Shown here: positions 27,281 through 32,839 of the stretch, piece after piece
Numbering within the stretch: position 1 is the stretch's first letter
Layout: each line of letters starts with the position of its first letter
Assembly (NCBI GenBank): GCA_000724175.1
Contig: JPGV01000012.1
Span: 1 to 64,000 of the forward strand
Direction of reading: 5' to 3'
Source of the DNA: [Candidatus Thermochlorobacteriaceae] bacterium GBChlB
Lineage (GTDB): Bacteria; Bacteroidota; Chlorobiia; Chlorobiales; Thermochlorobacteraceae
Length of the DNA stretch: 64,000 bases
Position numbers and translations under genes: made by a program
Notes under the pieces: generated by a model
The model's input: the letters and a program-made list of their open reading frames with translations, nothing else
What the model was told of the DNA's origin: nothing
The model's database searches: none

Positions 27281-27721
27281 TTACGCCAGACCTTTGGTAT
27301 TTAAGTCAATTTTCGCGTCGGTGAAAATCGTATCTTTGAACATTGCTCCGATGAAGCTCGCGCCGCGCAAGTCTGCACCCGTGAAGTTCGCGCCACGCAA
27401 GTAAGTGCTTCCTAAATCCGCACCTTGCAAATTTGCGCTCGATAAATTCGCGTCGTGCAAGTAGGCTTGATACAAATTCGCCTGAAATAAATTTGCGCTC
27501 GATAAATTCGCGTCGGTGAGATTGGCGTTTTTAAGAAACGCGTTTGCAAGCGAAGCGCCACTAAGGTCTGCACCTTGCAAATTGAGCGGACGATACTGTT
27601 CGCCTACGGAACTAAGCGCAATCAGCATCCATAGGTCGCGGTCGGAAAGATGTCGCATGGCTTGAAGCGATATTGATGAACAGAGTTTCTTAATCGAAGG
27701 GATATTCAAATGTTCTTTCAA
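27281..27721 (-). CDS. Pentapeptide-repeat protein
   Basis: 146 residues. After about 45 helical residues it has roughly 16 tandem A(D/N)LxX five-residue units (for example GADLSGASLANAF and DANLSSANL), which fold into a right-handed square helix. The DNA contains a 27-bp exact repeat at 60-bp period (27429-27455 and 27489-27515), so the array grew recently by duplication. Some relatives mimic DNA and protect gyrase, but most are of unknown role. No signal peptide, so probably cytoplasmic. The start overlaps the end of the upstream small membrane protein gene by 32 bp, suggesting coupling. Confidence 0.88.
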   Translation of the reverse strand: MKEHLNIPSIKKLCSSISLQAMRHLSDRDLWMLIALSSVGEQYRPLNLQGADLSGASLANAFLKNANLTDANLSSANLFQANLYQAYLHDANLSSANLQGADLGSTYLRGANFTGADLRGASFIGAMFKDTIFTDAKIDLNTKGLA

Positions 27722-28070
27722 CGCCGTTCTTGCTTACGAAGGTAACGCTGCTTTCTCTTTGTCGTTTAAACGCCGTCGCCGACGATGCAATAAATTCATC
27801 GCGCTCGGTATTTTTACCTAATTCGTAGCTTAACGAATGGCCATTTTTTCCATGAATATACACGGTGCGTTGTCGCCGCCCCGATGTTTCTGTGTAATCA
27901 TATATTTGCACATTGCCGGAAAATTCTCTTTGTAAAAACCATGCCGCCGCTTCTTTTTTCTTTTTAATGTCGTCCAATTTAAAGACAACGCCAAAGAAAA
28001 GCCATATTCCCGCGAACAGTAACGCCGCCACAATCACAACTCCAACCGCTATTTTTAATAACAATGACAT
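27690..28070 (-). CDS. Small single-pass membrane protein, unknown function
   Basis: 126 residues. A strong N-terminal membrane helix (about 4-30) is followed by a soluble domain of about 95 residues with a mixed charged pattern and repeated beta-like stretches (VQIYDYTE, TVYIHGKNG, SVTFVSKNG). I recognise no family. It overlaps the pentapeptide gene by 32 bp and starts 17 bp after the TPR/AT-hook gene, so the three are probably one transcript. Confidence 0.7.
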   Translation of the reverse strand: MSLLLKIAVGVVIVAALLFAGIWLFFGVVFKLDDIKKKKEAAAWFLQREFSGNVQIYDYTETSGRRQRTVYIHGKNGHSLSYELGKNTERDEFIASSATAFKRQRESSVTFVSKNGVERTFEYPFD

Positions 28071-28087
28071 AGCTTATCCTTACATTC

Positions 28088-29587
28088 TTACATATTATAC
28101 TTTTGGAGTAAGAGTTCAATGGCTTCAGTCGTCAAGGCGGAAAGGTCGCGTCCTGTTTCCACGCTGAGCAATTTTAATTTTTTTTCTAATACAAGGTTTT
28201 TTAGATAGTAGGTAATCTTTTTCGGTTTTTCGCCGACGTGTGGCTTTCGTCCGCGTTTTTTTTTCGGTGTTGTGATGATTGTGTCAGCCGTAGCACTTAC
28301 TGGCATCTCTTTTAGGTCGCCTGAAACTTTTTGTTCACCTTCTCTCAGCGAGGGTTTGGTCTGTTCATGTTTTGCCAGCATCAAGTAATCGGATTCATCG
28401 AAGAGTGCCTCGTGCGACTTTTTCTCCTGTCCGACACGCGCCGCAGTTTCATCGACCATTTTCCGAACTCGAATCACCCCGCTTTCTTCCGCTGTATCAT
28501 GCGCGTTTGGAAACTCTGATTTTTCAGGCGGAAGCGGACGAGACGCGGACGACGGTTTTGATTTGAGGGCATCAGCAAGCGAGAGCGCACGCTGAAAATG
28601 CTCGCTGGCTTTGGCATTGTTTTGTTGCTTGGTAAAAATCTTTCCGAGCCGCATCAGCGTTTCCGATTCACCTTGTTTGTCACCGATGTGCTTTTGCAGC
28701 TCCAACCCGCGCTGATGAAACATCAATGCCCGCTCATGGTTGCCAAGCTGCGAGAAGATATTTCCGATGCTGTTGAGCAAATACGCTTCGCCTTGTTTAT
28801 CGCCCGCCTCTTGCTTGTATTTCAAAACGCGCTGATAACAGTCAAGGGCTTTTTCATAGTGGCCGAAATTGTAATGAATGTTTCCCAAGCTCTGCAACGC
28901 CGCTGCTTCACCTTTTTTATCGCCGATAGAGATGCGGATTTTCAAACTCTTTTCGTAGTACTCCAAGCCGCGCTTCGGGTCGCCGAGATACGAATACACG
29001 CTTGCCAAATGATTGAGTGAATTGGCTTCACCAACACGATCTTGAATGGCGATGCGGATTTTCAGACTCTTTTCATGAAACTCCAACGCGCTTCGATAGT
29101 CTTTGATGCTTGCATAAATGCCGCCGATGTTGTTGAGCGAATTGGCTTCGCCGCGTCGGTCGCCCACGACCTGATTCAGTACAAGCGTTTTTTGGTAGCT
29201 CTCCAACGCCGATTTGTGGTTGCCTGATTTGTAGTGAATGTTTCCAAGCGTATTCAGCACGCTGATTTGCCCGCCCATATCCTCGATTTCTTCGAAGATT
29301 TGCAGCGCGCGCTGCGATTCGTTCAAGGCTTTTTCAAACTCGTTTTTTCTCCAAAGACAAAATCCACGACTGCGCAGCGCCTCAGCTATCCCTTTGGCAT
29401 AACCAACTCGCTTCGCTTCCTTCAACGCCTCGTCAGCCCACTGCATTGCCGTGTGAGCATCGCCGAAACGCAACTCCCATGCCGCATGGTTCAAGGCATC
29501 AACGCGCTCTTCGCTCGTCGCCGCAATTTTCAGCGATGCCTCTAATTCTTTGATAATGGCGTTTATCATATTCGTTGGCTGTTGCAC
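28088..29587 (-). CDS. TPR protein with AT-hook and ribbon-helix-helix-like C-terminus
   Basis: 499 residues, no signal peptide. Residues about 15-335 hold seven to eight 40-residue tetratricopeptide repeats of the NSLNNIGxIY...ALEFxEKSLKIR type (protein-binding, LGN/Rapsyn-like). A disordered linker follows. At 441-450 is PKKKRGRKPH, an AT-hook core (RGRKP) that fits the minor groove of AT-rich DNA. Residues 456-499 (KITYYL, then LVLEKKLKLLSVETGRD and LSALTTEAIELLL) have the strand-helix-helix layout of CopG/ParD-type ribbon-helix-helix DNA-binding domains. So it may link a protein partner to DNA. It is followed closely by the small membrane and pentapeptide genes. The DNA-binding part is my inference. 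Confidence 0.85.
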   Translation of the reverse strand: MQQPTNMINAIIKELEASLKIAATSEERVDALNHAAWELRFGDAHTAMQWADEALKEAKRVGYAKGIAEALRSRGFCLWRKNEFEKALNESQRALQIFEEIEDMGGQISVLNTLGNIHYKSGNHKSALESYQKTLVLNQVVGDRRGEANSLNNIGGIYASIKDYRSALEFHEKSLKIRIAIQDRVGEANSLNHLASVYSYLGDPKRGLEYYEKSLKIRISIGDKKGEAAALQSLGNIHYNFGHYEKALDCYQRVLKYKQEAGDKQGEAYLLNSIGNIFSQLGNHERALMFHQRGLELQKHIGDKQGESETLMRLGKIFTKQQNNAKASEHFQRALSLADALKSKPSSASRPLPPEKSEFPNAHDTAEESGVIRVRKMVDETAARVGQEKKSHEALFDESDYLMLAKHEQTKPSLREGEQKVSGDLKEMPVSATADTIITTPKKKRGRKPHVGEKPKKITYYLKNLVLEKKLKLLSVETGRDLSALTTEAIELLLQKYNM

Positions 29588-29691: not shown

Positions 29692-30648
29692 TTAACGCGA
29701 TATGCCTGATGCCGTTACAGCGCGTTGTTCCGTCGTATACTTTCTCGATTTGAGCATTAGTCTGCGACCGTCTTGCCGCTCGGCTTTCACCAAGATATTC
29801 GGCGCATTTTTCTCGAGCCAATACACGCCGCTCGTCATGCCGTTTTGCTCCGCTACAATTTTCCAGCACTCAATGTTTCCCATAGCGGTTTGCACGACTG
29901 CCAATGAGTCGACCTTAAAGTCTGTCGGTATGATTTCAGGCGGTAGGGTGTTCGGAGAAACTTGGGAATGCAATGTCTCGCGCAGAAATTCTTGTCCCTG
30001 CTTGAAGTTCAGGCTTCGCAGCGAGAGCGGGAGTTGGTCATCGAGAAAGACATCTCGCGGCAGGTCATGTTCGCCATCGCCTATCGTGCCTTCCGACGCA
30101 TGAAAATACAGTTTCGACCGCCCGACTAATCGTCGAAAAATTTTACTTGTTATTCCCAACTCATCGTGCCACATCGCGACATACTTTACCAGTTTCACCG
30201 GTTCACTCTGCAAGACCGATACGGTCGATGAGACTTGCGTTGGGAATCCGCCCGTCTGAATCCGCGCCGCTGTGTGCTGCACAATGACCGCAAACGCACC
30301 TGACTGCGTCGTGTCTGCCGCCATTGTATGCGATTCTCGATTGTAAAATTTTCGTGAAGTATGTCGCGTTTCCGTGTAGGCACTTGCATCGTCGCCCGTC
30401 GCAGGCAGCACATCGTATTCAGCAATTTCGGCAACACCGCTTTTCCAAAAGTTTGCCCACTCCGAGTTCAGCAATTCGTTGCCGGTTCGCACCGAAGGCT
30501 CTGACGACGCTTTTGTTGATGTTTTCGGCGACGCTTGGTCGAGTCGGTCTGAGACAGCTTTCGGCGGTTTCCCATCGCACCCCGTCAACACAAGTGTGTA
30601 GAGGAGGCAAGCTAATTTGAACAAGCTACTCAATGACGAGTTGACCAT
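29692..30648 (-). CDS. Putative lipoprotein, unknown function
   Basis: 318 residues from ATG 30648, chosen because it gives a signal peptide and lipobox ending at Cys24 (LVLTGC). The frame opens 69 bp further upstream without such a signal. A Ser/Thr-rich linker follows, then a beta-rich domain of about 260 residues that looks like the DUF3108-type or LolA-like envelope fold, with segments such as VQTAMGNIECWKIVAEQNG and a C-terminal VKAERQDGRRLMLKSR block. I cannot name the family with certainty. Its start overlaps the comEC stop by 23 bp, so it is translationally linked to comEC. Confidence 0.7.
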   Translation of the reverse strand: MVNSSLSSLFKLACLLYTLVLTGCDGKPPKAVSDRLDQASPKTSTKASSEPSVRTGNELLNSEWANFWKSGVAEIAEYDVLPATGDDASAYTETRHTSRKFYNRESHTMAADTTQSGAFAVIVQHTAARIQTGGFPTQVSSTVSVLQSEPVKLVKYVAMWHDELGITSKIFRRLVGRSKLYFHASEGTIGDGEHDLPRDVFLDDQLPLSLRSLNFKQGQEFLRETLHSQVSPNTLPPEIIPTDFKVDSLAVVQTAMGNIECWKIVAEQNGMTSGVYWLEKNAPNILVKAERQDGRRLMLKSRKYTTEQRAVTASGISR

Positions 30649-32839
30649 CTCGTTCCGTTGTTTTAAGGCGTGGTTCAGTTGAGGCATACCGATAAAATTT
30701 CTTTTTCTCAAAAGCATTCATCCAGCTACTTAGTTCCGCCACACAGCAACTTGGGTTTGCATAGTCCAGCCATTGGCTCAACAGTGCCTTCTCTTTCTCG
30801 CCGAATTTTCTCAGCTGAATCAACGCAACATCACACTTAAAGAACGGCGACAGCTTTAAATCCGACACCCGTTGCGCGCATAATAGACGCTTTGATTTCG
30901 TCATGATTTTCAAGAGATATGGTGTTGGACGATAACAAATCATCGTGCGCAGTTTTAATACGCTGTCCTTCCGCAAAAAAGTTTGAGCAGCATTTATGGC
31001 ATTCACGAGTCCTGTTTTGCTTGAAAATTGCACCGCCGCCGCCAGCGAGTCGGCTTTAAATAAAGCACGTTGTTTGTTAATTCTTGACCATTGTTTTTCC
31101 GATGTTCCCGCATCAATGAGAATTGACTCAGTTGTTGTTTTGCAAATGACCGCATTGCCGCGCCCGATGGCGCTAAACATAATGATTGGCTGCGGCGCCT
31201 TGTCCCACAAGCCTTTCCAGATGACGATATTGACCGCAACCAGCGCGGCAATCAGCCAACGCACATCTCTTTTCGGCTCGGTCAATTTTAGGACTGCAAT
31301 TGTTGTTAAGAAAAATGCAACGATGCCGAAAGCTGATAATTGAAATTCAACGCTTGCAAATGGAACTTTGCTAAACCATTCTGTAATTCCGATTGACCAG
31401 TGAATTAAATAAAACGCGCACAGTGCATAATAGGTTGAAATTCCGATGCCGAGCGACTCAAAGAGAATTGCGGGAATCATTGAAAGCACGGCAAGCGATG
31501 TCATATCAACAATGACGAGATTAGCGAAAAGCCCCAACATCGGCACGCTTCCAAACATGAATGCAATGAAGGGCGTCGTGCCAATTGTCGCCGCAATTGT
31601 AAGCGAGAGTGCATTCCAAAAAAATTTGCCAACGCCAGTGATGACGTCTAATACTGGGTTCTTCTTTTCAGGATCGTAGAGCGCCGAGAGTCGCGGATAA
31701 ATCAGTATAATCGCGGCGACAGCGCCGTTGGTCAAGTGAAAACTTAAGCTAAACAGCTCTCTCGGATTCCATATCAACATCATTGCTGCAGCGGCGCCGA
31801 GCGTATTGAGCGACAGTGATTTTCGTTCCATAAGCACTGCAAACTCGAACAGAATTGCCATTATCACTGCTCGCTTAACTGGCGGCGTGTTTCCCGTCAT
31901 TTGACTGTATAACACCAGCGCGAATACGGTAAGGAAAAACCGCAACCATTTTGCCCAAACGGTTGTATTTAGTCGCTTCAACAGAACGTTTAAGATGAAC
32001 GCAATCAGGCTGATGTGCAATCCCGAAATGGCAAGCACGTGCATCGTTCCTGTTTTCTGAAACGCCATGCGCACGTCGTCGGAGATGCCGCTTCGGTCGC
32101 CCAGCAACAGCCCTTTGATGAAACTTTGTTCGTCGCCGTCTTTAATCAGTCGTTCAATGCTTTTTTTGACAGCGGCATAGGCGGGCAAGACAAACGTATC
32201 GTAATAAAAATTTTCTTCACGCTCGTCGGTATGTTTTACGCTTGCTTCGCCTGTCGCGCTCAGCAGCGCGTAAATCTCTTGTTGTTCTAAAAACTCGCGA
32301 TAATTGAACTCGCCTTTATTTCTGGCGGTCGGCGGCAATGTCAGCCTCCCATTCACCCAGCATTTATCGCCGATAGTCAGATTTATTTTTTCTTTGTCTT
32401 TTAAGTTTATGCGTATGCGCACGTTGCCCGAAATCGTTAGTGTATCGATTTTATCTTTGGTCGATAAAATGATTTTTTCAACGCTTGCCGTCCACTGCAC
32501 TCGATTGTCTTTTTGAGACGGTTCGGTTTTAACGACGACTTTGATGGGCGCTTTCTCATTTACGAACATCAGCACAGAATTTGGCGGAACAAAGTGAACC
32601 GTCGACGCTGTGTATGCGGCGAATGCAAGTATGACTGCCAACGGATAACCTGCGGTCCAAAGCGTCGATGCAAGTAACATTTTTCGTTTGGAAATCTCTT
32701 CGATGAGCGCAGCAGAGCCTGTTAGGGCGACAATGAGGACGGCGGCAAAAAAGGTGAATGGGAAAAGTTTTGGAAGGTAGAATCCGAGCAAGATGCCCGA
32801 AACTATCAGTAAACACAAGCGAATCGCGGGGTATGCCAT
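30626..32839 (-). CDS. comEC: ComEC/Rec2-family competence membrane protein, degenerate C-terminal domain
   Basis: 737 residues. ComEC forms the inner-membrane channel for single-stranded DNA uptake in natural transformation. Visible: an N-terminal pair of membrane helices, an OB-like DUF4131 region (about 80-170), the competence domain with GLLLGDRSGI and HVLAISGLHISLI, and about ten membrane helices to around 530. From about 550 the metallo-beta-lactamase-like domain begins with IGRGNAV and ILIDAG, where families normally have VGQGDA and a following HxHxDH metal motif. Here that His/Asp motif is absent, so the proposed nuclease activity is probably lost. It is coupled upstream to the alkaline-phosphatase-superfamily gene (10-bp gap) and downstream to a lipoprotein gene. 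Confidence 0.88.
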   Translation of the reverse strand: MAYPAIRLCLLIVSGILLGFYLPKLFPFTFFAAVLIVALTGSAALIEEISKRKMLLASTLWTAGYPLAVILAFAAYTASTVHFVPPNSVLMFVNEKAPIKVVVKTEPSQKDNRVQWTASVEKIILSTKDKIDTLTISGNVRIRINLKDKEKINLTIGDKCWVNGRLTLPPTARNKGEFNYREFLEQQEIYALLSATGEASVKHTDEREENFYYDTFVLPAYAAVKKSIERLIKDGDEQSFIKGLLLGDRSGISDDVRMAFQKTGTMHVLAISGLHISLIAFILNVLLKRLNTTVWAKWLRFFLTVFALVLYSQMTGNTPPVKRAVIMAILFEFAVLMERKSLSLNTLGAAAAMMLIWNPRELFSLSFHLTNGAVAAIILIYPRLSALYDPEKKNPVLDVITGVGKFFWNALSLTIAATIGTTPFIAFMFGSVPMLGLFANLVIVDMTSLAVLSMIPAILFESLGIGISTYYALCAFYLIHWSIGITEWFSKVPFASVEFQLSAFGIVAFFLTTIAVLKLTEPKRDVRWLIAALVAVNIVIWKGLWDKAPQPIIMFSAIGRGNAVICKTTTESILIDAGTSEKQWSRINKQRALFKADSLAAAVQFSSKTGLVNAINAAQTFLRKDSVLKLRTMICYRPTPYLLKIMTKSKRLLCAQRVSDLKLSPFFKCDVALIQLRKFGEKEKALLSQWLDYANPSCCVAELSSWMNAFEKKKFYRYASTEPRLKTTERDGQLVIE

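Follow-up and report, generated by a model that had tools for sequence, protein, structure and literature searches.

A TPR protein with a ribbon-helix-helix-like C-terminal tail in two genera of a hot-spring Chlorobi lineage

Introduction

In transcription factors of the RNPP, AimR and AfsR types the DNA-binding module is an HTH or SARP domain situated at the N-terminus. It is coupled to a TPR domain, and the TPRs of RNPP and AimR have been found to bind peptides (PMC5131891, PMC6458997, PMC10936776). Standalone repressors of the Arc/CopG/RHH_3 kind (PF12651, PF20605) have a strand-helix-helix pattern with a basic arm before the strand. Most AT-hooks contain a GRP core, non-canonical ones carry extra residues within the core, and WhiB7 is a bacterial AT-hook protein (PMC11354804).

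The protein described here is encoded in a 64,000-nucleotide stretch of contig JPGV01000012.1 (the window) from a hot-spring relative of green sulfur bacteria. Its tail shows the basic arm and the strand-helix-helix pattern of the standalone repressors, but in contrast to these it is the C-terminal part of a 499-amino-acid TPR protein, and unlike in the RNPP, AimR and AfsR-type factors the putative DNA-binding module is at the C-terminus. All parts of this TPR-RHH protein are known; their combination is lineage-restricted and was seen in two genera. No paper on a TPR-RHH or an AT-hook-RHH fusion was found in the literature searched.

Results

TPR array and linker

The protein consists, in this order, of eight TPRs, a disordered linker and a C-terminal tail. 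The gene and the segments coding for these parts are:

28088-29587, minus strand: TPR-RHH gene, ORF of 499 amino acids with GTG start
28562..29578, minus strand: TPR array, residues 4-342, eight 40-residue TPRs and a capping helix (Pfam, AlphaFold, Foldseek)
28268..28561, minus strand: disordered linker, residues 343-440 (AlphaFold pLDDT mostly <50; pN/pS 0.73-0.81)
28238..28267, minus strand: basic, AT-hook-like PKKKRGRKPH, residues 441-450 (alignment of four species)
28091..28228, minus strand: RHH-like segment, residues 454-499 (RHH_3, Arc-like PHROG, modelled helices)

Translation may start at the ATG at 29569, six codons after the GTG, since the proteins of the relatives begin opposite Met7-Ile8.

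The protein belongs to the TPR family by its match to Pfam TPR_12 (E=1.6e-48). In AlphaFold runs, which were performed on the monomer with a two-row alignment (the window protein and one relative), 17 helices were obtained across residues 4-342 with mean pLDDT mostly 88-98, and the chain was mostly disordered from the end of the TPR array to about residue 462. Both the length and the sequence of the linker differ among species. The best Foldseek matches of the TPR part were the TPR domains of LGN/Pins (E about 1e-14), which likewise have eight 40-residue TPRs forming the same type of superhelix (PDB 4wne, 4jhr). Solved LGN complexes contain Insc, NuMA and other partners, and the title of entry 4jhr describes auto-inhibition by the protein's own GoLoco motifs; such motifs were not seen in the TPR-RHH protein. 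With 22-31% identity the likeness is one of fold alone, and the eukaryotic polarity function of LGN/Pins is not implied.

Sequence and models of the tail

The sequence of the tail (residues 441-499) is PKKKRGRKPHVGEKPKKITYYLKNLVLEKKLKLLSVETGRDLSALTTEAIELLLQKYNM. Its basic PKKKRGRKPH is followed by KPKKITYYLKN...LLLQKYNM, in which KKITYYL is the ribbon predicted by homology, with helix A at 465-478 and helix B at 487-496. With the curated Pfam RHH_3 cut-off of 21.6 bits, the full-length protein remained below the threshold (18.2 bits). The isolated window tail scored 21.7 bits as an 80 aa segment and 24.5 bits (E=2.7e-5) as the last 45 aa, and the isolated tails of three related species 25.4, 22.4 and 22.6 bits, which by sequence match places the isolated tails in the MetJ-Arc type RHH_3 family only just above the cut-off. 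In the PHROGs collection the tails of two species matched 'Arc-like repressor' (E=1.7e-4 and 5.7e-6), and KKITYYL could be aligned with KKVTYYI of a protein (L040) that scores 32.7 bits across the whole RHH_3 model. The claim of the earlier note that a long TPR array is fused to a CopG/Arc-type RHH segment is borne out by these matches and by the retention of the segment in homologues (see below).

When a profile of the four tails was compared with 32 independent standalone RHH domains, hhalign gave a probability of 79%, and none of 200 column shuffles of the tail profile exceeded 11%. Searches of single tails against the same 32-sequence profile with hmmsearch did not separate them from shuffles. 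Taking the two results together, there is a genuine signal of homology, though a modest one. With four independent RHH sequences hhalign gave 5.7%, yet this was above 100 shuffles; a value of 93% obtained with five RHHs was set aside because two of the five had been found using the tail itself. When PDB sequences were searched with the tail, neither phmmer nor profiles found an RHH; the best profile matches were response regulators over a short helix. Taken as a whole, the sequence support for an RHH tail appears good but not overwhelming.

In the AlphaFold monomer the tail formed the two helices (465-478 and 487-496) with moderate confidence and no strand or ribbon, and a fold search of this model (again from the two-row alignment) found no match in the PDB, RHH included. 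It should be mentioned that the RHH ribbon forms only in the dimer. With no strand and no RHH match in the PDB for this low-depth monomer, the RHH fold is a prediction from sequence. These models, and the failure of the single-profile hmmsearch to beat shuffles, would be explained if the tail were a basic helical segment other than RHH whose profile matches reflect the compositional likeness of two amphipathic helices. This is improbable in view of the Pfam matches in four species and the PHROGs matches in two, the 200/200 result of the profile-profile comparison and the KKITYYL alignment.

The basic motif

K442, K444, R445, G446 and R447 are invariant in all four species, defining the motif K-x-[KR]-R-G-R; of 32 sampled RHH_3 proteins, none had an RGR motif ahead of the domain. 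KRGRP, the canonical form, is present in the three relatives. In the window protein the sequence is KRGRKP, i.e. the GRP core flanked by basic residues that defines an AT-hook is broken, and Pfam AT_hook was not reported. An RGRP-type motif standing beside another regulatory or DNA-binding module is also seen in HMGA and WhiB7 (PMC11354804); unlike these, the window protein has the broken core, which its relatives keep intact. Of the AT-hook proposed by the earlier note, the invariant basic RGR thus stands, but to judge from the residues present 'AT-hook' is too strong for the window copy, for which 'AT-hook-like basic arm' seems a fair description. A role of RGRKP as a non-canonical AT-hook-like element is possible.

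Distribution and conservation

Among 61 whole genomes (the window genome and 60 relatives) the TPR-RHH tail was found only in the window genome and in three others, which belong to a second genus of the family, Candidatus Thermochlorobacter, and all keep the whole domain order. Absence of the C-terminal segment from every homologue, the finding on which the earlier note would have been given up, is therefore not what was observed. In one Thermochlorobacter-genus copy (G004, L033:29-1701) the TPR region is split into two overlapping frames, by either an assembly error or a recent frameshift, and the tail is conserved. The TPR and RHH parts were most likely joined before the two genera separated.

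Identity between the window protein and its relatives is 71-76% in the tail, 53-56% in the TPRs and 18-25% in the linker. The pN/pS ratios, which are only comparative because synonymous sites are saturated, were 0.21-0.27 for the tail between the window and the relatives, 0.08-0.15 for the tail among the relatives and 0.72-0.81 for the linker. The tail is under the strongest constraint in the protein and is its best-conserved part, which argues that it is a functional domain.

A draw of 394 genomes of the phylum added only weak standalone RHHs, and a tblastn search of plasmids and phages with the tail gave no match. A degenerate-pattern scan of genome contigs for the tail, the sole type of search by which phyla beyond Bacteroidota were covered, matched only two Thermochlorobacter contigs, so that TPR-RHH proteins may occur in other phyla. 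RHH_3 matches in 296 genomes of the phylum were nearly all in short frames, mostly <230 aa, and the two other long frames that were opened (G101, G181) looked spurious. RHH_3 as part of a long fusion appears to be rare in this set.

Genomic neighbourhood

Two ORFs follow the TPR-RHH gene with operon-like spacing:

27690..28070, minus strand: small ORF, 126 aa, with an N-terminal hydrophobic stretch, 17 bp past the TPR-RHH stop
27281..27658, minus strand: pentapeptide-repeat protein, 125 aa from MRHLSDRD (Pfam Pentapeptide, E=1.8e-29)

The 126-aa ORF has no relative in the 61 genomes and no Pfam match, and it is inserted between the TPR-RHH and the pentapeptide gene in the window genome alone. 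The pentapeptide protein, which has a conserved non-repeat N-terminus (MRHLSDRDLWMLIALSS), was found in 9/9 searched genomes of the family. In Thermochlorobacter its gene comes directly after the TPR-RHH stop (76-77% identity to the window protein), and a pentapeptide gene is located immediately or nearly downstream of every TPR-RHH gene. It also occurs, with 68-72% identity, in 5/5 genomes of two other genera of the family, where its neighbours are different genes and TPR-RHH is absent. In the two genera that have TPR-RHH the linkage is real, but, given these other occurrences, the partners are not obligate. In at least two Thermochlorobacter genomes a CheY-like receiver gene is divergent from the TPR-RHH gene.

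The neighbours read around TPR-RHH comprised the TM ORF, the pentapeptide protein, the response regulator and other non-toxin genes. A toxin-like gene, the neighbour by which an RHH antitoxin of a type II TA system is recognized, was not among them in either genus. These observations bear on the idea that the tail works like an antitoxin or binds a protein, folding on its partner, with DNA binding as a secondary or lost function. Its weak matches do include Antitox_RHH and RelB-like, but with no toxin-like gene nearby and with an invariant basic RGR arm we consider this idea unlikely. Neither was a parA or other partition gene, as would accompany a ParA-linked RHH, adjacent among the ORFs read. 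No convincing shared operator was found upstream, as the palindromes of the window gene do not match those of Thermochlorobacter, and a promoter and terminator scan was at chance level. A defence role was also looked at and dropped: the PADLOC matches were almost only to the TPRs, none to the tail.

Comparison with TPR paralogues and with ParA-linked RHH proteins

Nine TPR_12 paralogues of the same genome were examined. They carry at the C-terminus HisKA/HATPase (five), GGDEF (one) or a LuxR-type HTH (three, of which two were recognized by Pfam and one by eye), and several of the closest matches in relatives also end in GGDEF or a histidine kinase. These proteins share with TPR-RHH the N-terminal TPR_12 array followed by a C-terminal output; TPR-RHH differs from them in the putative RHH output and the long disordered linker. 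The earlier note could name no standard family with this domain order. This fits insofar as RHH_3 in a long fusion is rare and undescribed in the papers found, but not for the architecture as such: judged by domain content, a TPR array with a C-terminal output is common in this genome, and RHH as the output is the unusual choice.

In two other Bacteroidota (L042:488-1662 and L043:1504-2654) an RHH-tailed protein of 130 aa, with an N-terminus that is probably disordered, is encoded directly after a ParA gene, and the two are likely to be a partition pair.

Discussion

Since the nine TPR paralogues carry histidine kinase, GGDEF or LuxR-type HTH outputs, the best reading is that the TPR-RHH protein is a soluble TPR-sensor regulator with a DNA-binding RHH output, to which we assign a slightly better than even chance. 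Consistent with this, the isolated tails of four species reach the RHH_3 cut-off, an Arc-like PHROG is matched, the tail is constrained (pN/pS 0.08-0.27), the TPR fold is LGN/Pins-like, and tail-like RHH domains adjoin ParA, a known kind of DNA-acting partner, in L042 and L043. Arguing in the other direction are the tail models, which have no ribbon and no RHH match in the PDB, the PDB sequence searches, the marginal RHH_3 scores with a sub-threshold full-length scan and the want of a convincing shared operator.

The earlier note had envisaged protein partners being linked to AT-rich DNA. In such a DNA-anchored scaffold the RHH/AT-hook tail would dock on a specific site or on the nucleoid and the TPRs would recruit proteins, with no transcription switch. 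The long disordered tether and the basic, minor-groove-like motif would suit such a function, and the tail-like RHH proteins next to ParA make it respectable. In view of the lack of an adjacent ParA or partition gene among the ORFs read, and because the paralogues with TPRs in this genome are signalling proteins, it is nevertheless a clearly less probable explanation.

If the protein is a TPR-sensor regulator, its LGN-type superhelix would bind a peptide in extended form, either from a partner or from its own linker. The linker of ~100 disordered residues would tether the superhelix to the C-terminal RHH domain, which would dimerise and insert a two-stranded ribbon into the DNA major groove, while the RGR-rich basic arm might contact the neighbouring AT-rich minor groove. 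Binding of the partner would alter dimerisation or operator binding. The probable target would be the protein's own promoter region, with the presumed operon that includes the pentapeptide protein and, in Thermochlorobacter, the divergent response-regulator gene as the genes concerned, and this would amount to autoregulation.

A bolder formulation, put forward tentatively and with odds well short of even, is that of a new class of one-component regulators, which arose by the swapping of an RHH onto a TPR sensor in one hot-spring Chlorobi lineage. Here a peptide- or protein-sensing TPR superhelix would control, through a disordered tether, a DNA clamp made of an RGR arm in the minor groove and an RHH ribbon in the major groove. 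Should the regulator interpretation hold, RHH would join the DNA-binding outputs placed behind bacterial TPR sensors, the protein would show how the shuffling of sensors and outputs creates lineage-specific regulators, and bacteria would provide an example in which an RGR-type arm acts jointly with an RHH ribbon. As the gene was seen in only two genera among the genomes covered, it opens no wider question alone.

A separate observation concerns a ComEC-like protein of 737 aa encoded in the same window:

30626-32839, minus strand: ComEC-like protein (Pfam Competence, E=2.4e-55, and DUF4131)

Its nuclease-type domain may be degenerate: a beta-lactamase-type domain was not detected at E 0.001, although an LIDAG-like string is kept at the C-terminus.
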